Source of the DNA: a virus
Strand: one strand, 5' to 3'
IMG/VR virus record: IMGVR_UViG_3300048925_000643
Location: 1 to 53,923 of that record
DNA length: 53,923 nt
Position 1 is the stretch's first letter. Every line of letters begins with the position of its first letter. Positions 6,716 through 47,547 of the stretch are shown here, piece by piece. The position numbers and the translations under genes are program-made. A model generated the notes under the pieces. That model searched no databases and was not told the origin of the DNA. It worked only from the letters and a program-made list of their open reading frames with translations.

Positions 6716-8554
6716 CTACACGAACCTCTCCACCTTTATCGTGTAAGGAAATGACGCGTAGTCAACGCTAGCGTTAGTTGTATTTCTCCCGCGAAGCGTG
6801 ACTTTGTTCGCAGAGTAGACAACGCCCGTAAGTTGGAGAGAAGCAAATACCCCTAAAGTCGATGTGCAAGTAGCGGTTACCATGTCTCCCGGGAGGCTGC
6901 CGGGGCAATCAAGCTCCACGAGGTCCACAGTTGCGAAAGCAGCAATAGACGGCGGATCAAAAGTACCGCTGACCGTTTTTAGGTATTGCTGTACAGAGCC
7001 GCTGCGGATTTGCAACCCCGATCCAACACTTACATTCCCTACGTCGTCCACCGTAAAAAGAAATGTTCCATCTTGTTTTCGTATCGAAAGAACGCCCGTG
7101 CCCGCGTCAAACCGTATCGCCCTGCGGTTAGAAGGTTTACCAATTAAAATCCCGCCCGGAGACCCGCCAGCAATGCTAGACTCAACAGCAAAATAAACAT
7201 CAGATCCGGTAGGGTCTCGGCTGGTGGATGCAACCAGGAAATAGTCAAAGGCATCGTTGCCTAGTAGAGGGTTTTCGTTAATAGGGCTAGCTGCACCAAC
7301 ATTCCCGGCGTAATACGCAGCGTACCATCTACCGGCGCGTGTTTCTGTAAAATGACCATAACCTTTACCCGCTGACAATCCAGCAGACGTTTCAGTCATT
7401 CCTGGTATCCAGTGCATAGACAAACTAGGTACATCGCTTTCGTTAACGATGGCACTTGCGATTTCTATAGGTGTACCGCCTCCGGTTTCGCCCGCCGCGC
7501 CTGTGCGAACTTTACGCACGTCAACCGCAATGCCTGCAGTGTCTCCTTTGTGACCTTGCCGCGCGACTACGATTAACGTGTCTATTTCGCCTTCGCCTTG
7601 TGCGGTTTTCCAATCTCCGCTTTCAATGTCGCCGGTGTAGGTTACCTTCTCTGCGGATAAAATGAGCGCCCCGTCTGCCGACTGTGGACCAAATTCTCCT
7701 GAGCCTGAAGATTTCTTAATGAATGATTTAGTAAAGAAAGCGCCCGAGTGCGTAGTTTTTTGTTCCGCAAATTCGTAAGACTTAACACCAGTCGCGGCAA
7801 AAGGGACTAGCGGCGGGTTTAACGGCGCGCCTACACCTTCGTCCGGTAGCGATGTTGTTACCTGCGAGGCCATCGCAGACACGCGATTTCGTGCCGCTGT
7901 TGTGCCCGCTTCTGTTGACAGCGACTTGTAGGCGTCAGTAATACGCGCATCATCCCCGGCTGCGACCGTTCCATCCGTCGTCCCGACGCTTCGCGTTGCG
8001 GAGTTCCCAAGCCCGAGATTTGTCCTGGCTGTTGCTGCATTCGTCAAGTCCGAGAGATTTGCAGCTTTTTGCGCGGCGTTGTCTGCTGTCGTGCCTTGCG
8101 CAGCAGTAGCGAAATCGGTGTCATCCGAAAGCGCAGCCGTACCCAAGCCTAGTGTGCTGCGCTGGGCTGCTGGCGTGGCATCGTCAAGCAATGCGCGACC
8201 GGCAGCAGTCAAGCCAGTGACAGCGGCAGCATCCGGCCCAGTGAAATAGATAAACTGATCGTCGCCAGGGGTTGTTGCCTCCATCGCAGCCGTCGTAGGA
8301 CCGATAATGACCGACTGGATATTACTGACGAGGTCCTGAAACGATATGCGCGAATACATATCGATCGACTGGTCCCATCCCCAAAAATAGGTTGTATCAG
8401 GAGTGGAAACGGATGGAATTCGCGCGAGAGCGCCAAAGTCTGGCTTAACCACCATATCCGACCCGTCGCGCTCGGCATCTAGGCCATTGGCGCCCATGAT
8501 GCGGGCCGGAAAGCGGGGTAGAACACGCAAGCGTAGAGAGGTGCGATTGCTCAT
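6716..8554 (-). CDS. Tail fibre protein, 612 aa
   Basis: The N-terminal 100 residues include the virion-binding-like ISFQDLVSNIQSV. A region with repeated LGLG motifs follows (AQRSTLGLGTAALSDDTDFA, then TARTNLGLGNSATRSVGT), a signature of phage fibre shafts. The long C-terminal part is beta-rich, low in Cys and Lys, and presumably carries receptor binding. Its start overlaps the stop of the 8551-8895 gene by ATGA. The C-terminal half looks more AT-rich than the N-terminal half, suggesting exchange of the tip domain. It lacks an obvious enzyme motif, unlike the SGNH tailspike. Confidence 0.8.
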   Translation of the reverse strand: MSNRTSLRLRVLPRFPARIMGANGLDAERDGSDMVVKPDFGALARIPSVSTPDTTYFWGWDQSIDMYSRISFQDLVSNIQSVIIGPTTAAMEATTPGDDQFIYFTGPDAAAVTGLTAAGRALLDDATPAAQRSTLGLGTAALSDDTDFATAAQGTTADNAAQKAANLSDLTNAATARTNLGLGNSATRSVGTTDGTVAAGDDARITDAYKSLSTEAGTTAARNRVSAMASQVTTSLPDEGVGAPLNPPLVPFAATGVKSYEFAEQKTTHSGAFFTKSFIKKSSGSGEFGPQSADGALILSAEKVTYTGDIESGDWKTAQGEGEIDTLIVVARQGHKGDTAGIAVDVRKVRTGAAGETGGGTPIEIASAIVNESDVPSLSMHWIPGMTETSAGLSAGKGYGHFTETRAGRWYAAYYAGNVGAASPINENPLLGNDAFDYFLVASTSRDPTGSDVYFAVESSIAGGSPGGILIGKPSNRRAIRFDAGTGVLSIRKQDGTFLFTVDDVGNVSVGSGLQIRSGSVQQYLKTVSGTFDPPSIAAFATVDLVELDCPGSLPGDMVTATCTSTLGVFASLQLTGVVYSANKVTLRGRNTTNASVDYASFPYTIKVERFV

Positions 8555-8897: not shown

Positions 8898-9842
8898 TCA
8901 GAGCCTCATATAGATCGAGCAGCCTGTTGATGGCTGAACGTTGTTATGCGGCTCACCACCGCCAGATGGTTGAATGGCGATTCCGGTTATTCCGATGCCC
9001 GTAACCTGCGTGTTAGTGAATTGGTCAATCGCAAACATGCTGGATGAGCTTCCCCGGTCACCCCAACCCGGCCGATAAATCGGTTGCGGGTAATCTTGGA
9101 CATGGCGATGGCCTGGGTCACTAACCCCGTGCGAATGCGATGGCATTTGAGCCGCTGTAAGCGTGTGGCTCTGGCTCCCACCAGACCAACCGACAGCGGT
9201 TGCTCCCGTCATTACACCCGCTGCTGCGTTACCCATATTGTCGTAACCAACAACCGTTCGACCGCGCCAGTCTGGCAAACCCATAGTTTTATTGGCGCTG
9301 AAGTCGGCTGCGGCAGAAGCCCCTCGACCGCCTGTGATCGGCGCAGCGGGCCAGATATTCCAGAGGTAACTATAAAGGGGCTGAGTATCGCTGTTTGCTC
9401 GTTCTTCGGCGCCAGACGTGGCAGAACCGATAGTTCTCCCATTGAGGCGCACGAAGCCCACGCGAGGCTCGTTACCGAAGCGGAGCATCATATCTCCGGT
9501 GGCCATTAATGAATCGGGGTCTACTGGGGTTGGGGGCGCTTCGCCGCCGCTCCCACTTGGCCCGATAATTGGAATTGCTGGCGTGTCATAAAGCACCACC
9601 CCGCCAGAGGTAGTTACGCGCACGCGATAAAACTCATCGGCTTCGTCAAAGAACACAGCCGGGAAAACGCCATTACCATCCGTCACCAGGGGGTTCGGAT
9701 GCGGAGTCGATAGGTCGTTGTCGCGATATGTGGTAATCGGGGTTGTTGTCCCGCCGCTGTAAAAATACGCCCGTGCCCCAATATATGGAACACCCTTGGC
9801 GTTGCTGATCTGAGAAAGGCTGTTAGGCCAGAAACCTGCCAT
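8898..9842 (-). CDS. Phage tail collar-domain protein, 314 aa
   Basis: The C-terminal two thirds have the tail-collar pattern: GWVRLNG-like GFVRLNGRTIG, LPDWRGRTVVGYDNMG, then HTLTAAQMPSHSHGV and PHNNVQPS. The His-rich PSHSHG site binds metal in related fibre tips. The N-terminal ~110 residues (FWPNSLSQISNAKGVPYIGA) match the beta-rich attachment domain of podoviral tailspikes. It is probably a minor fibre or tail-tip protein co-expressed with the two genes downstream. Confidence 0.85.
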   Translation of the reverse strand: MAGFWPNSLSQISNAKGVPYIGARAYFYSGGTTTPITTYRDNDLSTPHPNPLVTDGNGVFPAVFFDEADEFYRVRVTTSGGVVLYDTPAIPIIGPSGSGGEAPPTPVDPDSLMATGDMMLRFGNEPRVGFVRLNGRTIGSATSGAEERANSDTQPLYSYLWNIWPAAPITGGRGASAAADFSANKTMGLPDWRGRTVVGYDNMGNAAAGVMTGATAVGWSGGSQSHTLTAAQMPSHSHGVSDPGHRHVQDYPQPIYRPGWGDRGSSSSMFAIDQFTNTQVTGIGITGIAIQPSGGGEPHNNVQPSTGCSIYMRL

Positions 9843-39926: not shown

Positions 39927-40531
39927 GCTGCCACCTGCTGCCGTGTTCCGATGAGGACAAAATGAGATACCGGATCGCGGATAACCTCATGCAACCTGTC
40001 AAATTCAGCTTCCGTCGGTCGAACGGCGTCTGTGTGCTTCTTCGCGTGGCTACCCTTCCACCTTTCGAGGATCGCGTAGACATCACTTGGCTTTTTGAGA
40101 TTGTTTCCAGTGGCCTGCTCAGCCTTCCTCTCAGCCCATATCAATTGGAACTCGTAGCTTTTCAGCTCTTTCTGGAAATCAGGAATTGGCTTTCTCGGCT
40201 TCCTCGTCACATTGCGGATAGTGCCGCGATAGTCTGCGAGGTTGATCGCCGTGGAGATTGTCTCGCCATCCAACAGCTTTCCAACAGCCACCAGAAGCCT
40301 TTCGCCCGGGTGAAACCATTCGCGGTGCGAGTGATAGTCGGCAAAGACCTCATGAATTTGCTTCTCGAGACTATAGTTTCCGGGTTCCGTGTAGATGACT
40401 TCGAGCTTGAACGGAGACCACGTCGCGAGTGCATCAAGGCGCTCATCCACGCATGTCGAGCAACCGATCTTGATTGGTCCGGTCATCCCGACCGGGCGAA
40501 TGAAGTAGATATTTTTCCCCTTGGTCGTCAT
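39923..40531 (-). CDS. GIY-YIG-like (T5orf172/MUG113-type) nuclease-domain protein, 202 aa
   Basis: The first 80 residues carry the GIY-YIG-like pattern: IYFIRPVGMTGPIKIG (8-23), CVDERLDAL with Arg31, SLEKQIHEVF with Glu56/His60 and HREWFHPGERL (Glu71). The remaining 120 residues are helical and basic. Such proteins occur in phage early operons and may nick DNA. It is the second gene of the leftward operon, overlapping the Cro-like gene by ATGA. Confidence 0.78.
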   Translation of the reverse strand: MTTKGKNIYFIRPVGMTGPIKIGCSTCVDERLDALATWSPFKLEVIYTEPGNYSLEKQIHEVFADYHSHREWFHPGERLLVAVGKLLDGETISTAINLADYRGTIRNVTRKPRKPIPDFQKELKSYEFQLIWAERKAEQATGNNLKKPSDVYAILERWKGSHAKKHTDAVRPTEAEFDRLHEVIRDPVSHFVLIGTRQQVAA

Positions 40532-40746
40532 GCCGCTGGCTCCTGCGCTTGCGCTTCACGAGCGGGTCGGAAAACTTCGGGGATGAGTTCCTCGCGAGAA
40601 ATCCCGGTGAACTCCGACACCTCCGGCACGTATTCCGGGGGAACCGATTTCCATTGCGATACCGTCGAAGGCTGCAGACCGAGATGCTCGGCCAGCTTCT
40701 TCTGCGTCCCGCGATTTGCTTTGAAGAACTCGATTAGCTTTTTCAT
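40528..40746 (-). CDS. Cro-like helix-turn-helix repressor, 72 aa
   Basis: MKKLIEFFKANRGTQKKLAE, HLGLQPSTVSQWKSVPPEYV: a short YdaS/Cro-type helix-turn-helix, followed by a C-terminal acidic tail. It is the first gene of the leftward early operon and diverges from the repressor gene. The ATG at 40746 lacks a clear ribosome-binding site and is very close to the likely transcription start, so its mRNA may be leaderless. It probably binds the TTTCAGTCAA repeats. Confidence 0.82.
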   Translation of the reverse strand: MKKLIEFFKANRGTQKKLAEHLGLQPSTVSQWKSVPPEYVPEVSEFTGISREELIPEVFRPAREAQAQEPAA

Positions 40747-40754
40747 ACCCCCAT

Positions 40755-40798
40755 ATTCAGTCAAAACGAATTTCAGTCAAGCGAAAACTTTCAGTCAA
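40755..40798. promoter_or_regulatory. Operator cluster A, three TTTCAGTCAA repeats
   Basis: ATTCAGTCAA (40755-40764), TTTCAGTCAA (40771-40780) and TTTCAGTCAA (40789-40798), all on the plus strand at 16- and 18-bp spacing, fill the 57-bp gap between the Cro-like and repressor genes. On the minus strand each gives TTGACTGAAA, a -35-like TTGACT; the copy at 40780-40775 with GAATAT 16 bp later would start leftward transcription near 40746. Binding would block the leftward promoter directly. Confidence 0.8.
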
Positions 40799-40803
40799 AC
40801 GCT

Positions 40804-41283
40804 ATGGAATGCATTTTCTGGATGGGCGACATTCTGAGGATGGGCACAAGGCGGAAACTGAACACGGAAAATGGGCGCAAGGGCCACTTCATCTCGGAGT
40901 GGATGAAGCACCGCGACATGACGCAGGAACAGCTTGCGGCAGAGGCAGGCTATGCGACCTCGTCAATCAATCAGCTTGTGAATGGTAAGCAGGGCTACAG
41001 CCAGGTTACGCTTGAGGCGATTGCTCCTGCGCTCAGATGCGAGCCATGGGAGCTAATCGCGGTCAATCCGCTTCAAGAGGGCAGAGACCCGGATACGGAA
41101 AGAGCGGCGCGCGCGCTGCGCTCGGCGTTGCTGGCATTCGGTGTGGACCACACGCAGCTGGGGCTGGCGATCGATATCATCGGGAGGTTCGTTGCTCACG
41201 AGCCGGTCGAGGAGCAATCAGAACAAAGCCAGACTGGTGATCAATCTCTACCCGCCAGTCGCCGCCGTGAATCGACGCCATGA
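40804..41283 (+). CDS. XRE-family phage repressor, 159 aa
   Basis: Residues about 32-80 contain a helix-turn-helix (FISEWMKHRDMTQEQLAAEA, YATSSINQLVNGKQGYSQVT), then the segment PALRCEPWELIAVNPLQEGR. The C-terminal 60 residues are helical and polar and lack the S24/LexA-type protease, so induction by RecA-promoted cleavage is not expected. The start is uncertain: 40804, 40822 and 40840 are ATGs with no clear Shine-Dalgarno. It is the likely CI-equivalent of this phage. Confidence 0.8.
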   Translation: MECIFWMGDILRMGTRRKLNTENGRKGHFISEWMKHRDMTQEQLAAEAGYATSSINQLVNGKQGYSQVTLEAIAPALRCEPWELIAVNPLQEGRDPDTERAARALRSALLAFGVDHTQLGLAIDIIGRFVAHEPVEEQSEQSQTGDQSLPASRRRESTP

Positions 41284-41428
41284 TTGCTGAAATCTCGGTC
41301 GCCTTCCTTCTGATGACGACCTCCGGCGCTGGTGGCTGCTGAGCGCCTGCGGATTCGATCAGCCCGGCAATGATCTCGTCATTCCGGGTTTTGTACGTTC
41401 TTCGAATCCGATCGTAAATGCGAGACAT
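41177..41428 (-). CDS. Small conserved-type protein convergent with the repressor, 83 aa
   Basis: ATG at 41428 is preceded by GGAG at 7 nt. It has a helical N-terminus (MSRIYDRIRRTYKTRNDEII) and a C-terminal IHGGDWRVEIDHQSGFVLIA that looks like a conserved beta element of phage and rhizobial proteins. Its last 107 bp lie antisense to the 3' end of the repressor gene, so transcription of one could affect the other. Confidence 0.6.
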   Translation of the reverse strand: MSRIYDRIRRTYKTRNDEIIAGLIESAGAQQPPAPEVVIRRKATEISAIMASIHGGDWRVEIDHQSGFVLIAPRPAREQRTSR

Positions 41429-41460
41429 AGATTGCTCCACCACCCATTACCAAGAACTAA

Positions 41461-41482
41461 TAGTGAACAAAAGCGATCACTA
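41461..41482. promoter_or_regulatory. Inverted repeat upstream of the 83-aa gene
   Basis: TAGTGA-N10-TCACTA, a 6-bp-arm inverted repeat about 33 bp upstream of the ATG at 41428. A dimeric regulator could bind here. The rest of 41483-41647 is AT-rich and holds no gene that I can see. Confidence 0.4.
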
Positions 41483-41647
41483 ATTCAAGCGGCGCGCTCT
41501 CGGATTCGGGTCGACTGACGACAAAGCATTGATTCGGGAACGATCTTTTTTCTAGGAATGATTGCCTTGCTCCCGTTTCTACCAATTACCCTCAGAGCAA
41601 GAACCTTATAAACAAATAACCCTTTAGAAATTCAGCTTTATAGATTG

Positions 41648-41691
41648 GACCCGCAGATTTGCGACCCAATTGACCCGCAGATTTGCGACCC
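41648..41691. repeat. Pair of 20-bp iterons beside a winged-helix gene
   Basis: GACCCGCAGATTTGCGACCC occurs exactly at 41648-41667 and 41672-41691, a period of 24 bp. Each copy has inner inverted arms CGCA/TGCG and outer GGGTC-like ends. The second copy ends in the stop codon of the winged-helix gene (41691). The flanking region is AT-rich. The layout fits an origin or an operator. Confidence 0.8.
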
Positions 41692-42008
41692 TAGGTTAAT
41701 TCGAACGGTAGCCGGATATAATAGATATTCGACTTCCGGTGTTCCCTGACCACGATCAGGACGCCCTCACCTTCAAGCTCAGAGACAGCCCGTAAAACCT
41801 TGTCCTCGGACATGGAGAGCCGTTTCGCGATTTCCTTGACCCCATACCAGCAAGACTGGTCGTCACCATTCATCCTCTTCGCCAGCCAGTAGCCGACGCG
41901 GAATGCGCGATCCGATAGCGCGTCCATCTCACAGATGAAATCGAGCCACTTTCGCCGCTTGTCATAGAAGGCTGCGGCCGACTGGCCGTCATCATTGGTT
42001 TTGAGCAT
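41691..42008 (-). CDS. Winged-helix (RepA/HTH_36-like) protein, 105 aa
   Basis: YDKRRKWLDFICEMDALSDR, AFRVGYWLAKRMNGDDQSCW, then YGVKEIAKRLSMSEDKVLRA: a helical start followed by a winged helix-turn-helix with strand ending NIYYIRLPFEL. This resembles the DNA-binding half of plasmid RepA-type initiators and related replication regulators. It transcribes leftward out of operator cluster B and ends on the iteron pair, to which it might bind. Confidence 0.72.
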   Translation of the reverse strand: MLKTNDDGQSAAAFYDKRRKWLDFICEMDALSDRAFRVGYWLAKRMNGDDQSCWYGVKEIAKRLSMSEDKVLRAVSELEGEGVLIVVREHRKSNIYYIRLPFELT

Positions 42009-42033
42009 GGAGTATTCCTACGCCGGAAACAAT

Positions 42034-42095
42034 TTTCAGTCAAAGCGAAATTATGTGTTGACTGAATTTCAGTCGTAACGTAATTTCTAGTCATC
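42034..42095. promoter_or_regulatory. Operator cluster B and divergent promoters
   Basis: TTTCAGTCAA at 42034-42043, the same element inverted at 42058-42066 (TTGACTGAA), TTTCAGTCG at 42067-42075 and a degenerate TTTCTAGTCA at 42084-42093. The middle two form a palindrome GACTGAA-t-TTCAGTC (42060-42074). Rightward promoter: TTGACT 42058-42063, 17-bp spacer, TAATTT 42081-42086. Leftward: TTGACT (42043-42038), weak TAGGAA -10. Repressor binding would shut both. Confidence 0.82.
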
Positions 42096-42159
42096 AGCAG
42101 CGACGAACCCGCCTCACCCGCCGATCTCGCTGCCACCACAAGAACCGGAGATGACGACG

Positions 42160-42363
42160 ATGGGCAAGGTTTACAAAATCTACTGCGACGGTTTCAGCAA
42201 GACGATTGCAGATGCTTCTGCCGTTCAGGCCTACATCGACTGGCTCCGCACCAAAGGATGCGTCGGCAAGGAAGTTGTTATCAGCGTCGGTCGCGGCGAT
42301 CTGAAAGCCGCTGTCTTCAACCCCGGTCATCCCTGCCGCCGTGAAATTCTGAGGGCAGCGTGA
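42160..42363 (+). CDS. Hypothetical protein, 67 aa
   Basis: I chose the ATG at 42160, with GGAG 9 nt upstream; ATG 42151 has no spacing for it. The product has a start like VYKIYCDGFSKTIADASAVQ, then IDWLRTKGCVGKEVVIS and GRGDLKAAVFN, an alpha/beta look. It is the first gene of the rightward operon and its stop overlaps the next start (TGATG). Confidence 0.65.
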   Translation: MGKVYKIYCDGFSKTIADASAVQAYIDWLRTKGCVGKEVVISVGRGDLKAAVFNPGHPCRREILRAA

Positions 42364-42533
42364 TGTTCTACGAAAAGCTCAATGCAAAATACTGGCAGGA
42401 AGAGGCGGCAATGCACGCTGAGTGGGCGCTTGATTACCTGCTCGACGGCGAGCTTGAGGAAGCGGTTCGGCATCAACGGATTTCCGCTGAATACGCCGAA
42501 AACGCCCGCTGCGGAATGAACATCACCGCCTGA
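42363..42533 (+). CDS. Small helical protein, 56 aa
   Basis: MFYEKLNAKYWQEEAAMHAE, WALDYLLDGELEEAVRHQRI: a single amphipathic, acidic helical region. The ATG overlaps the previous stop (TGATG). A short C-terminal polar segment follows. Function unknown; co-translation with the 67-aa gene suggests a common role. Confidence 0.65.
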   Translation: MFYEKLNAKYWQEEAAMHAEWALDYLLDGELEEAVRHQRISAEYAENARCGMNITA

Positions 42534-42568
42534 TCTCCAATTCGATCTCAACCACTGAGGATGAGCAA

Positions 42569-42856
42569 ATGGCAATGGTAACGCGCTTCAACGTCGAAAT
42601 GCATACCCGCAGCGGCAAGTCGATTTACCTGTGCCAGTTCGGTGACGGGATGGAATGGACCTCTAACCCGGATGACGCCTTCGAATACGACGACGTTGAG
42701 GAAGCCGATGCAGACGCGCTTCGGTACGGCGGCGAGGTGTTTGAGTTCCAGCGCCATGCACGCCCCGGCGAGATCGTTCTGCCTTCGCGGATCGACATCA
42801 ACCCCATCGTACGCGGTGCCAATATTGCACAGCGCGATCTGGTGGCGGCCGAGTGA
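42569..42856 (+). CDS. Hypothetical protein, 95 aa
   Basis: GAGGA lies 8-12 nt upstream of the ATG. A beta start (VTRFNVEMHTRSGKSIYLCQ) is followed by acidic DDAFEYDDVEEADADALRYG and a short basic end. The acidic middle may mimic nucleic acid or bind a basic partner. The stop overlaps the next ATG. Confidence 0.65.
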   Translation: MAMVTRFNVEMHTRSGKSIYLCQFGDGMEWTSNPDDAFEYDDVEEADADALRYGGEVFEFQRHARPGEIVLPSRIDINPIVRGANIAQRDLVAAE

Positions 42857-43092
42857 TGGCGATGAGCGAGATGACCACCAGCGAAAAGGCGTGGTTCAAC
42901 AAGCTGTATCGGCTTCTGAACGCAATGCCCGTGGATGTCGAGGTTCAGGTCCACAACAGCCACATTCAGATGAACCGCAAAGGCGCACGTGACTCAGCTT
43001 TTGAGCGCGACGGCGACGGCGATAATGCCGAATCCATCGACCACTTCAACACATCGCATTTCCGCATCTATCCGTGCAGCGAGAGCATGTAG
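42856..43092 (+). CDS. Hypothetical protein, 78 aa
   Basis: ATG at 42856 overlaps the previous stop (TGATG); GTG 42853 and ATG 42862 are in frame. It starts with a helix (TTSEKAWFNKLYRLLNAMPV) and then a strand pair (DVEVQVHNSHIQMNRKG), ending in acidic FERDGDGDNAESIDHFN. No family recognised. Confidence 0.6.
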   Translation: MAMSEMTTSEKAWFNKLYRLLNAMPVDVEVQVHNSHIQMNRKGARDSAFERDGDGDNAESIDHFNTSHFRIYPCSESM

Positions 43093-43131
43093 CCCCGCAA
43101 TCCAAGGCTTCAAACAAGGGATGGGAAGAAT

Positions 43132-43464
43132 ATGAGCAAGGCAGTCGAAGACGTTCTTTTGGAACGCCAAAGGCAAATCGTTGAGGAAGGTTTCGACCAC
43201 GATCACGATGATCAGCACACCTTTGGTGAAATCGCGTTTGCGGGAGCTTGCTATGCAGTGTCCGGCGCAGTGCCGGAAGACCAACGCGGCAAGGATGATC
43301 GCCTGATGGCCGTCGTTCAATTCATTTGGCCGAAAGCGTGGGGATGGGGCTGGTGGACGCCAAAGGATCGTCGTCGCGACTTGGTTCGATCTGCGGCCCT
43401 CATCATCGCTGAGATTGAACGCCTCGACCGCCTCTCCACCCCTCACACCCCAACGGGAGAGTAA
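43132..43464 (+). CDS. Phage WPW-type conserved domain protein, 110 aa
   Basis: The pattern DVLLERQRQIVEEGFDHDHD, GEIAFAGACYAVSGAV, WPKAWGWGWWTPKDRRRDLV and AALIIAEIERLDRL belongs to a common, unassigned phage domain. The same domain forms the C-terminus of the 357-aa protein at 50035-51108, so the phage carries two copies. The His/Asp-rich DHDHDDQH could bind metal. The gene has AAGGGATGGGAAGA upstream. Confidence 0.75.
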   Translation: MSKAVEDVLLERQRQIVEEGFDHDHDDQHTFGEIAFAGACYAVSGAVPEDQRGKDDRLMAVVQFIWPKAWGWGWWTPKDRRRDLVRSAALIIAEIERLDRLSTPHTPTGE

Positions 43465-43465
43465 G

Positions 43466-43708
43466 ATGAGCGGACCCACTATGACGCTCAACCTATCGCC
43501 TGTGGAAATGCAGGTTCTTGAGCAGCTATGCCTTGAGCATCAGATGTCCAAGACCGCCGTTATCCGGCAGGCACTCAGGACTTACCAGTACCTCCACAAG
43601 CGCGCCATGGAAGGCGAGACGATCACCCTCAGCGGTGATGCTCAGAGGGCTATCGACTTTGTCGGCCCCGGCTTTGGCCAAGACCTGCGGGTTAAGTCAA
43701 ATGGCTGA
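43466..43708 (+). CDS. Ribbon-helix-helix regulator, 80 aa
   Basis: The ATG at 43466 follows GGGAGAG. TMTLNLSPVEMQVLEQLCLE (strand plus helix), then MSKTAVIRQALRTYQYLH (second helix) is a CopG-type fold. The C-terminal 30 residues contain GETITLSGDAQRAIDFVGPG. It probably regulates part of the rightward operon. It overlaps the next gene by 8 bp. Confidence 0.75.
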   Translation: MSGPTMTLNLSPVEMQVLEQLCLEHQMSKTAVIRQALRTYQYLHKRAMEGETITLSGDAQRAIDFVGPGFGQDLRVKSNG

Positions 43709-43904
43709 TCATCAAGAGGTTTGGTGCCAGCCGTCCGACCAACCAAAGAGGCAGTTTATCGTTCTTTTCGATGACCCTCAGATGGATTTAGCGGTCTTCG
43801 ATGACGAAACGGAAGCGCGCACTTTCTGGGAAAAGGCGAGCCTGAATTGGAATTGCTACCTCATGGGTACGCTTCCACGCGCCAACACCCCATCCACCAA
43901 CTGA
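43701..43904 (+). CDS. Conserved-type small phage protein, 67 aa
   Basis: RQFIVLFDDPQMDLAVFDDE, TEARTFWEKASLNWNCYLMG: strands and a helix in a pattern seen often in phage genomes without known role. The ATG overlaps the end of the preceding gene. A 51-bp gap follows, holding a ribosome-binding site for the next gene. Confidence 0.7.
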   Translation: MADHQEVWCQPSDQPKRQFIVLFDDPQMDLAVFDDETEARTFWEKASLNWNCYLMGTLPRANTPSTN

Positions 43905-43955
43905 ACCCACCAGCGGGCTGTGTACAGAGTACCCGCGCATTAAAGGGCAGGAACA

Positions 43956-44381
43956 ATGGCAGATACAGCAGCAATTCAGAAAATCAAAACATTGAAGAGT
44001 GATGCCGCGAAGATCGGCGGCTTCCATGAATGGTTCGCAAAGTCCTTTGCCGACAAGAAGCACCACGACAAGCAGAACTTTGGCTTCAACATTGGCCACA
44101 GCAGCGAATACAACTCGTTCAAGACCACCGTGTGGTTTTACGCCTATGCCGGTCAGTACGGCAGTTCGTCTGTATATAGCCAGTTGTCGGTGAGTGACGA
44201 AAAGGCAGTGAATGCAGCTTTCATTGCGGCCCTGAACAAGCACCAGAAACTCATCTTCCAGACCATGGCCGAGATCATGGAGAAGGAAGCTTCATCGCTG
44301 CGCAATAAAGCGGAAAGCGAAATCGCTGCCATGCAGGCGATGCTTGAGACGCTGGACGTTCCGGCAGAGGCTGGTGCGTGA
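43956..44381 (+). CDS. Hypothetical protein, 141 aa
   Basis: An N-terminal helical part (AAIQKIKTLKSDAAKIGGFH, then FAKSFADKKHHDKQNF), an aromatic central stretch (TTVWFYAYAGQYGSSSVYSQ) and a long C-terminal helix (AEIMEKEASSLRNKAESEIA). No family recognised. GGGCAGGA precedes the ATG. The stop overlaps the next start (TGATG at 44379-44383). Confidence 0.65.
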   Translation: MADTAAIQKIKTLKSDAAKIGGFHEWFAKSFADKKHHDKQNFGFNIGHSSEYNSFKTTVWFYAYAGQYGSSSVYSQLSVSDEKAVNAAFIAALNKHQKLIFQTMAEIMEKEASSLRNKAESEIAAMQAMLETLDVPAEAGA

Positions 44382-44617
44382 TGGGTAGAAACCAGCAAGA
44401 CACCCTATGCGCAATTCAGGCGGTCAAAGCGATTATCGACGGTCGCGACCCTATTGCCAAGCAATCAGAAATCCTTGTCACCGCTGAACATGCCATCGCA
44501 TCACTGTTGCTCATGCTTATGGGAGACCCGCGCAAGGCTGCGGGCATGCTCAATGAAGGTTTGGTTCAGGGCGTCGAAGAACGTCTGTCGCTCTATGCTT
44601 CGAAAGGCCGTTCCTGA
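44381..44617 (+). CDS. Small helical protein, 78 aa
   Basis: ATG at 44381 overlaps the preceding stop. All-helical: DTLCAIQAVKAIIDGRDPIA, EHAIASLLLMLMGDPRKAAG. The hydrophobic LLLMLM is too short for a membrane helix. It overlaps the next gene by one base. Function unknown. Confidence 0.6.
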   Translation: MGRNQQDTLCAIQAVKAIIDGRDPIAKQSEILVTAEHAIASLLLMLMGDPRKAAGMLNEGLVQGVEERLSLYASKGRS

Positions 44618-44862
44618 TGCCCCCTTTCTCCACCACCAACACACAAGAAGCGGATGACCCGACCGAGATCATCATCCGGCTCCGCAATTGCGAAAAGCAG
44701 ATCGACCAGTCGATGGCAGACCTTCGCAAGGGTGTCACCCGCCTCATCACAGGGCTTCTAACTCTGGGGATCATTTCAGCCTCGTTTCTGCACTTCGGCA
44801 TGCCGGCAGATCGGAAGATGGCGAAGGCAAATCAGGAGATCGATGTCGCATGGAAAAGATAG
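44617..44862 (+). CDS. Single-pass membrane protein, 81 aa
   Basis: A polar N-terminus and a helical IIIRLRNCEKQIDQSMADLR lead to a hydrophobic segment at about 43-62 (ITGLLTLGIISASFLHFGMP) and a basic-acidic tail. It has the design of small phage membrane or coiled-coil anchors. Its last 13 bp overlap the exonuclease-like gene. Confidence 0.65.
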   Translation: MPPFSTTNTQEADDPTEIIIRLRNCEKQIDQSMADLRKGVTRLITGLLTLGIISASFLHFGMPADRKMAKANQEIDVAWKR

Positions 44863-45851
44863 TCGACCAGGACAAGTTCAAAGCGATCGGCGGCATTGCT
44901 GGAAAGATGCTCGGCGGGCTTCGCCGGGATCGAAAGTGGGATGGCTCGCAAATCAAGCTGGGTGCGGTCTACAGCGGCGTACCTATTGAGACCTACCATA
45001 GCGACACCGAACTGTTTGACGGCTTCTCTATCTCAAGCTCTGGCCTCCGCGCCGTGCTCAAGCGTCCGTCCGAATATTGGGGCTTTTCGCCTTACAACCC
45101 CAATCCTTTCGAGAAGCCGGAGAAGGATAGCCTGGAGTTCGGCAAGGCGGCTCATATGCTGCTGCTGGGCGAAGAAGGCTTCAAAGAGCGCTATGTCCTG
45201 CGCCCCGAGAAATACCCAGACGACAAAGGCAACGAAAAGCCTTGGAGCGGCAATTCCAACTGGTGCAAGAAATGGCTTGCCGATCAGAAGAATGCCGGCC
45301 GCGTCGTCATCACCGACACCGATATCTCGCATATCCGCCACATCGCCAACTCGCTCCAGAGCAAGGAGGCGATCCGCCTCGGAATTCTGAACGGTCGCAT
45401 CGAGCGCAGCATCTTCTGCAAACACGGCGATATCTGGCTGAAGGCGCGGCCGGATGTGGTGCCGAACGACAGCGGCGACTTTGTCGACTTGAAGACAGCC
45501 GCCAGCGTGGATGACGAAAGCCTGTCCAAGGCGATCTATTCCCACGGCTATCATGTTCAGGCCGGGCTGCTCCGCATGGTTGTTCGGGAAATCCTCGGCG
45601 CCGACGCCTTCTCCAGCTTCACCTTCGTGTTTGTCGAGAAGTCACCACCCTATGACGTGCGCGTGATGCAGCTGAAAGACGAGGACATCGACCTCGGGGA
45701 AGCGCTCGCCCGCAAAGCCATAGCGACCGTCAACGAGTGCCTGAAGCGCAACGACTGGCCGGGATACGACGGCTTCGACAAGGCCATTTCCTACGCCGAG
45801 ATGCCCGGATGGGCAAAGACCCGCATCAAGATTGAACTGGAGGCAGCGTGA
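44850..45851 (+). CDS. RecE/RecB-like PD-(D/E)XK exonuclease, 333 aa
   Basis: The ATG at 44850 lies 11 nt after AGGAG. Catalytic motifs in order: GKAAHMLLLG (His102), ARPDVV (Asp202), FVDLKTA (Asp213, Lys215) and YHVQAGLL (Tyr234, Gln237), typical of PDDEXK phage exonucleases. It would resect double-stranded ends for the RecT-like annealing protein two genes downstream. The gene between them (45851-46432) appears to be an insertion in the recombination module. Confidence 0.85.
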   Translation: MEKIVDQDKFKAIGGIAGKMLGGLRRDRKWDGSQIKLGAVYSGVPIETYHSDTELFDGFSISSSGLRAVLKRPSEYWGFSPYNPNPFEKPEKDSLEFGKAAHMLLLGEEGFKERYVLRPEKYPDDKGNEKPWSGNSNWCKKWLADQKNAGRVVITDTDISHIRHIANSLQSKEAIRLGILNGRIERSIFCKHGDIWLKARPDVVPNDSGDFVDLKTAASVDDESLSKAIYSHGYHVQAGLLRMVVREILGADAFSSFTFVFVEKSPPYDVRVMQLKDEDIDLGEALARKAIATVNECLKRNDWPGYDGFDKAISYAEMPGWAKTRIKIELEAA

Positions 45852-46432
45852 TGGAATTGACCCGAAATCTTCGTGCTGCATGCCGCATTCAGGTGACATC
45901 TTTCAGTTTCCCGACCCATCCAGGCTTTAGGGACCTTCAGTGGATGCGTTTTGGTCGCCTGTTCGTGCAGACCTACGCCTGTTCTTCGCAGAAAAGGCCG
46001 AGGCTGACACGCCGATACTGGCTCTGCAATTGTGACTGCGGCGGTTACGCTATCGTAGAATCGACGGCGCTTCTTGGCGGTAGAACAACTTCATGCGGAT
46101 GCCGCCAGAGCGAAGTCACCGTGGCGCGGAATGTAGAGATGACCACCCACGGAGAGGCTGCAGCTCACACCGTGGAATACACGACGTGGGCATCAATGAA
46201 AGCTCGCTGCAATAATCCGAACTTCCCGAAATATCACCTCTACGGCGGCCGAGGCATCAAAGTCTGCGACCGTTGGGTGAACGACTTTTCCGCCTTCCTC
46301 GAAGACATGGGGCGCAGGCCTCCAAACAAGACGTCAATTGATCGCATCGACGGAGACAAGGGCTACGAGCCAGGTAATTGCCGGTGGGCCGACGACTTCG
46401 AACAGAACCGAAACAGGAAATTCAACCGATGA
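45851..46432 (+). CDS. Zinc-ribbon phage protein, possible homing-type HNH relative, 193 aa
   Basis: An N-terminal part has a Cys cluster (RRYWLCNCDCGGYAIVE, then TSCGCRQSE). The C-terminal half is a common phage domain: YTTWASMKARCNNPNFPKYH, YGGRGIKVCDRWVNDFSAFL, SIDRIDGDKGYEPGNCRWAD. The DRIDGDKGYEPGNCRW motif resembles the degenerate core of HNH/AP2-type homing nucleases. It lies between the exonuclease and recT genes with one-base and ATGA junctions. Confidence 0.72.
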   Translation: MELTRNLRAACRIQVTSFSFPTHPGFRDLQWMRFGRLFVQTYACSSQKRPRLTRRYWLCNCDCGGYAIVESTALLGGRTTSCGCRQSEVTVARNVEMTTHGEAAAHTVEYTTWASMKARCNNPNFPKYHLYGGRGIKVCDRWVNDFSAFLEDMGRRPPNKTSIDRIDGDKGYEPGNCRWADDFEQNRNRKFNR

Positions 46433-47547
46433 ACCAGATAACAGAGCGCACCGAACGACCTTCCAAGCCCGCCCTTACCTCTGGCGGTTCCATTTCAGCT
46501 ATCGTGCCTCAGTCGATCGAAGAAGCTTATCGCATCGCCAATGCGGTCGTTTCTGCCGGCATGGCTCCTCGCTCTCTGGATACGCCAGAGAAAGCCATGG
46601 TCGCCATAATGCACGGGCTTGAAATCGGTATGACGCCGATGGCCGCAATGCAGTCTATCGCTGTCGTGAACGGCTTTCCGACGATCTGGGGTGACGGCGC
46701 CCTCGGGCTTGTCCGCGGCTCTGGCATGATGGAATGGATAAAGGAATGGGCCGAGGGAGAAGGGAACGGATACGCCGCTCACTGCTCGGTAAAGCGCAAG
46801 GGCGAGCCTGAGGCCATCACCCGTTCATTCTCCTGGGACGATGCCAAAGCGGCCGGACTGCTTGGCAAAAAGGGCCCATGGGAAAATTACCGCGCCAGGA
46901 TGTTCCAGATGCGCGCGCGATCATACGCCCTGCGAGACGGTTTCGCTGATATCCTCCGGGGTCTTCGTATCCGCGAAGAAGTAGATGATTACCAGCACGT
47001 CGGCCCCGACAACGCCCGCGATATCACCCCGGCCCAGCCATCTGTCATGCAGCGTCTACGCGCCGCTCAGGATGCCCCACAGCATCTCGAGGAAGAGCGC
47101 GAAGGCTTTGACGCGGCATTCGTCCATTCCGAGACAGAAACCGCTCTCACGGGCGAGATACTGACCGATACCAATTCCGACGACACCCCATCCACCGCCT
47201 CGTCGTCGGATACCGCTGGCAATACGCCAGCAGATGAGGCCGGAACGGAATCCCCCTCCGACGCTCCGGCCTCTACCGATCCTGAGCGCGATATCCTGAT
47301 CCGGTTTGCCGCTGAAATGCTGCCGATGGCTGCGACGGCGAAGACAGAAGTGTGGAAGGACGTCGAGAAAGGCTGGTCAGAAGGCGAGATGAAAACTCTG
47401 TCGGAGGACGGAAAGGCCAAGGCGAAGTCCATCAGCCAGTCGATCCGCGCGATTGCCGCCGGTAACACCAGTCTGGAATCGGCCGCCGGTTTCCATGCCG
47501 AAATGCTCGACTGCAAGGCTTCTGATCTGGGAGGCGTCGATGGGTAG
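46429..47547 (+). CDS. RecT-family-like single-strand annealing protein, 372 aa
   Basis: Conserved-type blocks: MVAIMHGLEIGMTPMAAMQS, VVNGFPTIWGDGALGLVRGS, SFSWDDAKAAGLLGKKGPWE, and RARMFQMRARSYALRDGFAD. They match the RecT-type annealing proteins of proteobacterial phages. The C-terminal 150 residues are Ser/Thr/Asp-rich linker and a helical end (DLGGVDG). It anneals single strands produced by the exonuclease encoded upstream. The start overlaps the previous stop (ATGA). Confidence 0.85.
   Translation: MNQITERTERPSKPALTSGGSISAIVPQSIEEAYRIANAVVSAGMAPRSLDTPEKAMVAIMHGLEIGMTPMAAMQSIAVVNGFPTIWGDGALGLVRGSGMMEWIKEWAEGEGNGYAAHCSVKRKGEPEAITRSFSWDDAKAAGLLGKKGPWENYRARMFQMRARSYALRDGFADILRGLRIREEVDDYQHVGPDNARDITPAQPSVMQRLRAAQDAPQHLEEEREGFDAAFVHSETETALTGEILTDTNSDDTPSTASSSDTAGNTPADEAGTESPSDAPASTDPERDILIRFAAEMLPMAATAKTEVWKDVEKGWSEGEMKTLSEDGKAKAKSISQSIRAIAAGNTSLESAAGFHAEMLDCKASDLGGVDG

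Follow-up and report, generated by a model that had tools for sequence, protein, structure and literature searches.

Two clusters of one short repeat, about 1.25 kb apart, were found in the immunity region of IMG/VR virus record IMGVR_UViG_3300048925_000643, a complete record of 53,923 bp without host DNA that was analyzed at full length (hereafter, the window). With a probability of about 0.9, these clusters serve as operators for a phage immunity switch with two ends, in which a CI-like dimer and a Cro-like protein both read both clusters, arranged as a mirror image of the lambda layout. The switch is of a known kind; its specificity is new. A first-pass annotation had placed two such clusters on either side of the immunity region and proposed that one operator type serves both the leftward and the rightward operons. 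The copies were confirmed at those positions, and the common operator is supported by its presence in 21 of 21 related loci, by relatives in which both places share a changed sequence, and by matched recognition helices in CI and Cro.

Operator clusters and their conservation

With at most one mismatch, TTTCAGTCAA occurs at 40755-40764, 40771-40780, and 40789-40798 in the left cluster and at 42034-42043 in the right cluster, all on the plus strand, and at 42058-42067 on the minus strand. A sixth copy, TTTCAGTC followed by GTAACG, lies at 42067-42074 (plus strand), and a degenerate copy, TTTCTAGTC, at approximately 42084-42092. Judged by its bases, each site is an imperfect, asymmetric dyad of about 16 to 17 bp, in which one half, TTTCAGT, is strong and the other is weak. 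The core TTCAGTC was counted 10 times in the window, 6 times within the two clusters and as singles at 7391, 12984, 16067, and 34409. It was the sole 7-mer of the 53.9-kb window to form two clusters (at least 3 copies per 75 bp); in 20 dinucleotide shuffles no 7-mer formed two such clusters, and for TTCAGTC even one cluster arose in 0 of 200. The 10-mer count was only mildly unusual (9 matches versus a mean of 3.15, with 3 of 100 shuffles reaching 9), and it is therefore the clustering and the conservation that carry weight.

Conservation was assessed among 92 CI loci, gathered by way of the CI protein and annotated phages; from a CI scan of viral contigs, the best 80 of 115 relatives were used. 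Loci with this operator are termed type A. Those with distinct upstream regions number 21, including several near-duplicates, and the loci are related and not independent (L018 and L090 represent a single phage; the window, L088, and L016 are near-identical). Both clusters were present with near-fixed geometry in all 21, Rhizobium phage RHph_I1_23 and Sinorhizobium phage PBC5 included: every locus had three left sites (at most one core mismatch, spacing of 16 to 19 bp) and a right cluster with TTGACTGA. The right cluster reads TTGACTGAATTTCAGTC in 18 of the 21 and TTGACTGAAGTTCAGTC in one; in L094 and L102, both type A, the second right site is inverted. A separate DNA scan for TTGACTGAATTTCAGTC yielded 33 stretches, 21 of which had TTCAGTC 22 to 24 bp upstream; among these, 17 showed at least two left sites, and the other 4 ended before that place. 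The remaining 12 were L035, with a TTCATTC variant, and 11 stretches without such a layout.

The 15-bp operator TTCAGTCNAANNGAA was searched in six records, comprising two host genomes of relatives and four virus records. Many copies elsewhere in a host genome, which the first-pass annotation had named as evidence against its proposal, were not seen: in each of the two host genomes (5.9 and 4.0 Mb) the exact sequence occurred twice, once per prophage cluster and nowhere else. On this confinement to prophage clusters in the hosts of relatives, a host regulon was rejected. The sequence also occurred twice in one virus record with this operator and 0 times in three virus records with other operators. 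When 297 genomes of one family were scanned for TTCAGTCN{8,11}TTCAGTC, 29 matches in 27 genomes were obtained, versus 12 in a reversed control; by eye, only G001 (the same as L082, already known) showed an operator array, and L188 showed a third core nearby without an array. A lone TTGACTGAATTTCAGTCAGACTGAATAC was observed in L038 (at about 9024-9040) upstream of an open reading frame, without a partner site or a second cluster.

Relatives with other operators

The same layout, with another operator common to both places, was found for GTGAATGTCA (L012 and L198-L200), ATGCATNNNATGCAT (L089), TGTGCATNNNATGCACA (L086), GTGGATNNNATCCAC (L162), and ATACCGATTTGGTAT (Microcystis phage Mae-JY35). L054 was the clearest example. 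Its HTH_36 protein shares 98% identity with that of the window and the flank past the right cluster is alike, and its operators have changed as a set to CGGTNNNNNNACCG, with three in the left cluster and two in the right. Words shared between left and right clusters were scored in the 68 loci with sufficient flanking sequence, which included 18 of type A. Among the 50 others, a score of 4 or more was reached by 28, versus 69 of 600 mismatched pairs, and a score of 6 by 12, versus 14 of 600.

Recognition helices of CI and Cro

The Cro-like protein matched PF15943 (YdaS) at 45.3 bits (cut-off, 30) and P22_Cro at 25.1 bits, below the cut-off of 30.2; its best solved relative was P22 Cro (1rzs; E 0.0046). 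Operators lie in the interval from which its gene and the repressor gene diverge. A YdaS "toxin" reading of 40528-40746 was rejected, as position and homology favor Cro, a case already argued for YdaS as the Cro of Rac (PMC5917428). The solved relatives of the CI-like protein include P22 C2 (1adr; E 0.0024). Its Pfam matches were to helix-turn-helix (HTH) domains only, with no match up to E 1 to the self-cleaving S24 C-terminal domain.

CI and Cro both very likely read one operator, because their recognition-helix residues match phage by phage. The helix residues compared are taken to be the equivalents of residues 28, 29, and 33 in 434 repressor, which contact bases. The 92 loci gave 73 distinct CI proteins and, once L085 was dropped (no divergent HTH gene), 72 pairs; 40 dereplicated CI/Cro representatives entered the test, with 20,000 permutations that ignore the tree. 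Matches between CI and Cro were seen in 18 of the 40 pairs at residue 2 (3.8 expected), in 23 at residue 3 (10.3 expected), and in 33 at residue 7 (11.5 expected), each at the floor of the permutations, with no excess at buried residue 5 (4 versus 11.9) or at residue 6 (25 versus 24.1). At 45% CI identity, residue 7 matched in 13 of 15. Cro helices were read by eye; an automatic register gave the same reading for 65, contained gaps for 5, and departed from it for 2, namely L012 and L158, in which the profile had picked the second gene. With automatic-register rows only (64 pairs, 36 dereplicated), residue 7 matched in 28 of 36 (10.5 expected). Examples of CI/Cro helices are TSSINQ/PSTVSQ in the window, QSKVSR/QSQISR in L089, ASALSM/PSYVSM in L150, and HGQLSK/RSQISK in L086.

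In three relatives, the second leftward gene (3731-4195 in L012, 3731-4192 in L013, and its counterpart in L158) fuses a YdaS/Cro-type domain to a T5orf172 domain; the first leftward gene there encodes an HTH protein of another kind, and these loci have another operator.

Alternative explanations

Several observations weigh against a two-ended switch read by both proteins. Residue 7 was mismatched in 7 of the 40 pairs (L082, L094, L101, L109, L115, L158, and L162), and of these L082 and L094 carry the type-A operator; the loci are kin, and the permutations contain no tree model. The long-repressor phages L056, L058, L064, L067, L078, and L079, found among loci selected by HTH_36, lay outside the helix test, and L064 had no obvious CI/Cro helix match by eye. 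As to the operators, 22 of the 50 non-type-A loci fell below a shared-word score of 4, and in 18 loci selected by HTH_36 with other operators, hand-set patterns gave a left cluster (at least two sites) in only 6, a count in which L054 is a pattern miss. A strict scan for promoters and terminators found none of either, with 0 sigma-70 promoters in 40500-42400 (1.2 expected).

It is unlikely that the repeats are asymmetric monomer-bound sites or a direct-repeat array instead of dyadic operators. In the left cluster, all three strong halves do share one orientation and the right halves of the sites are poor, and the part of PMC9283540 cited here reports a mycobacteriophage repressor that reads an asymmetric site as a monomer; yet good dyads around a 3-bp center occur in relatives that keep this layout (GTGGATNNNATCCAC in L162 and TGTGCATNNNATGCACA in L086; L101 reads TTCAGTAGTACTGAA), and the right core forms GACTGAATTTCAGTC in 18 of the 21 loci. 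There is only a slight chance that one protein alone, for example Cro, reads the sites and that CI, which is small and has no recognized oligomerizing domain, acts elsewhere or in a minor role. Such an arrangement would suit a CI without a lambda-type C-terminal domain, and L012, L013, and L158 keep a YdaS-type HTH in their T5orf172 fusions despite a different operator, so that HTH genes can evidently persist without reading operators. The pairwise match of CI and Cro at contact residues, and not at buried ones, is nevertheless hard to explain unless both proteins read the same sites. Least credible is that the clusters have no regulator in common and are mere -35-like promoter sequences or repeats arisen by chance, as the TTGACT on the complement of several copies and the weak significance of the 10-mer count taken alone might suggest: the conservation extends far past the -35 hexamer and includes sites without a predicted promoter role, the operators of L054 changed as a set, and chance repeats were rejected on the shuffles.

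Gene map and proposed mechanism

From left to right, the immunity region holds a leftward operon (the Cro-like gene first, and a T5orf172 gene), the left cluster, the rightward CI-like gene, a small convergent gene, a leftward HTH_36 gene, the right cluster, and a rightward operon that includes genes of the exonuclease VIII and RecT types (Table 1). Four annotated phage records match this region, the nearest being RHph_I1_23 and PBC5 (two accessions), at about 72 to 73% identity over parts. The first-pass likening to lambda OL/OR held for the two-ended layout and not for its orientation: by analogy, the map mirrors that of lambda, with the left cluster (40755-40808) as OR and the right cluster (42034-42092) as OL. 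The left cluster as lambda OL was rejected, as the gene content matches OR. The repressor start also needed revision. The ATG at 40804 (inside CTATGG), previously taken as the start, is in most relatives out of the CI frame or followed by a stop, and homologues begin MGTR; 40804 was rejected, and 40840 is the more likely start. The annotated repressor start in PBC5 gp40 (L018, 4106-4202) is probably 96 nt too early by the same MGTR comparison.

Table 1. Operators, genes, and associated elements of the immunity region in the window
Feature	Coordinates	Strand	Remarks
Operator L1, ATTCAGTCAAAACGAA	40755..40770	+	Covers putative cro -10 (AATATG, complement of 40752-40757); promoter position predicted
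Operator L2, TTTCAGTCAAGCGAAA	40771..40786	+	Complement holds TTGACT (40775-40780), putative cro -35
Operator L3, TTTCAGTCAAACGCTA	40789..40804	+	Adjoins putative cI -10 TATGGA (40803-40808)
Operator R1, TTTCAGTCAAAGCGAAA	42034..42050	+	Complement holds TTGACT (42038-42043), possible HTH_36 -35; promoter predicted
Half-site over rightward-promoter -35 (42058-42063), plus strand TTGACTGAA	42058..42066	-	TTGACTGA in 21/21 type-A loci
Operator R2, TTTCAGTCGTAACGTAA	42067..42083	+	Between -35 and putative -10 TAATTT (42081-42086)
Cro-like gene, heads leftward operon	40528..40746	-	PF15943 and P22_Cro profiles, solved-structure relative
CI-like repressor gene, 147 amino acids from corrected start	40840..41283	+	HTH domain only; homologues begin MGTR
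Small gene, phrog_32610, probable start 41428	41177..41443	-	Antisense overlap with 3' end of cI; candidate antirepressor
LexA-type box GTTCACTATTAGTTC, ahead of small gene	41454..41468	-	Pattern match
HTH_36 gene, replication-initiator-like N-terminus, divergent from rightward operon	41691..42008	-	Profile matches
Rightward early operon, with an exonuclease VIII-type gene (44688-45851), a RecT-type gene (46378-47547), and small genes	42151..47547	+	Predicted extent as a single operon

For the switch as a whole, we infer binding, repression, promoter positions, and which protein prefers which site. In the lysogen, a CI-like dimer would bind both clusters and hold both early operons off; in lytic growth, the Cro-like protein would use the same sites to turn cI off and tune the early promoters. 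Because several sites contain the -35 sequence TTGACT, a protein bound there would exclude RNA polymerase. At the left cluster, L1 would lie over the cro -10, L2 over the cro -35, and L3 against the cI -10. At the right cluster, TTGACT, a 17-bp spacer, and TAATTT would drive the exonuclease/RecT operon. This pair (42058-42063 and 42081-42086), ranked strongest by the first-pass annotation, is present with that spacer, although TAATTT agrees with TATAAT at only 3 of 6 positions and the strict scan did not recover it. The leftward HTH_36 gene may be controlled from the right cluster as well, and R1 may hold its -35. Promoter occlusion at both clusters would be exerted by CI in the lysogen and by Cro in lytic growth.

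That the operator is built on the -35 element itself, as previously suggested, fits only in part. The middle left site reads GTCAAGC (complement of GCTTGAC) in many operator types, as expected for an operator on the -35, and in the right cluster of type A the half-site is TTGACT; in L086, L089, and L162 the right-hand -35 adjoins the dyads instead. The putative cro -10 directly precedes the cro ATG (40746-40757 of the window), and the cro mRNA may be leaderless.

A candidate route to induction

As no autoprotease domain was found in CI, induction is probably not that of lambda. The motif GTTCN7GTTC, an alphaproteobacterial LexA consensus according to the passage cited from PMC3091678, occurs once in the window, ahead of the small gene (chance expectation, about 2 per window and about 0.0006 per promoter-sized stretch). 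Because this LexA-type box precedes a gene that overlaps the 3' end of cI, the small gene is suggested to encode an SOS-made antirepressor. In 6 of 12 relative loci, the box stands 40 to 47 nt ahead of the small-gene start, in two lineages: L195-L197, the window's own, and L198-L200, which have another operator and small proteins that share 72% identity with that of the window. It was absent from the other six (L201-L206). In L082 and L128, GAACN7GAAC boxes lie 158 and 187 bp past the cI stop near small convergent genes, which are alike (CLxCxKxxxCQxG motif) and unlike the small gene of the window. A fold model of the small protein (mean predicted local distance difference test score, 78.1; predicted template modeling score, 0.48) gave no fold match at E 0.001 or better (best E, 0.81), a result that speaks neither for nor against an antirepressor. 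Transcription of the small gene would continue across cI in the direction of cro, and CI could be countered by the protein, by antisense interference, or by both.

A broader reading is tentative: a constant layout in which CI, Cro, and 5 to 6 operators at two places change as a set, with contact residues re-matched, and in which the window's branch is induced by SOS through the LexA-controlled small protein (41177-41443) and not through CI self-cleavage.

Comparison with known systems

These loci provide dozens of naturally matched CI/Cro/operator sets that differ in specificity within one layout, mostly from uncultivated phages and with Rhizobium and Sinorhizobium phages included. They could allow immunity groups to be predicted from recognition helices, let one test how a phage changes two repressors and 5 to 6 operators at two places without loss of control, and point to how SOS might act on a repressor that showed no self-cleavage domain. 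No description of such a switch in these phages was found in the literature covered, most subscription literature being outside that coverage.

In lambda, three operators lie between the divergent cI and cro, CI and Cro use the same sites, recombination genes are transcribed from the other early promoter, which carries a second operator group, and the operators lie over promoter elements. The window is alike in its three operators between divergent cI and cro, in the recurrence of that operator as a second group at the early promoter of the recombination genes, and in operators that overlap putative promoter elements. It is unlike lambda in its mirrored map, its operator sequence, the distance of about 1.25 kb between its clusters, the lack of a detected CI autoprotease domain, and an HTH_36 gene between the clusters that reads away from the right one. 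As no S24 domain was found in CI, the system is classed as lambda-like in its working and kept outside the lambda family. As in P22 immC and Rac-type (RacR/YdaS) regions, Cro is of the YdaS/P22_Cro kind and CI is related to P22 C2. In P22 itself, C2 undergoes self-cleavage and antirepression is encoded in a region of its own; the operators differ.

That helix residues track the operator across phages was also the correlation drawn for Cro by Hall, LeFevre and Cordes (2005, J Mol Biol), as cited in PMC5045206 and PMC4488713. Going by its title and those citing passages, that work compared Cro with the OR half-sites of lambdoid phages, whereas here CI was compared with Cro at 72 loci of another phage group; CI-Cro helix matching was not found beyond this cited Cro/operator work, again with most subscription literature outside the coverage. 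Small LexA-controlled antirepressors for non-cleavable repressors are known from Gifsy prophages, Tum of 186, and AntC of N15, according to the portion of PMC3121763 cited here. The window resembles these systems in its short repressor without self-cleavage and its small gene behind a LexA-type box, and is unlike them, as far as that portion describes them, in that the candidate gene overlaps cI.
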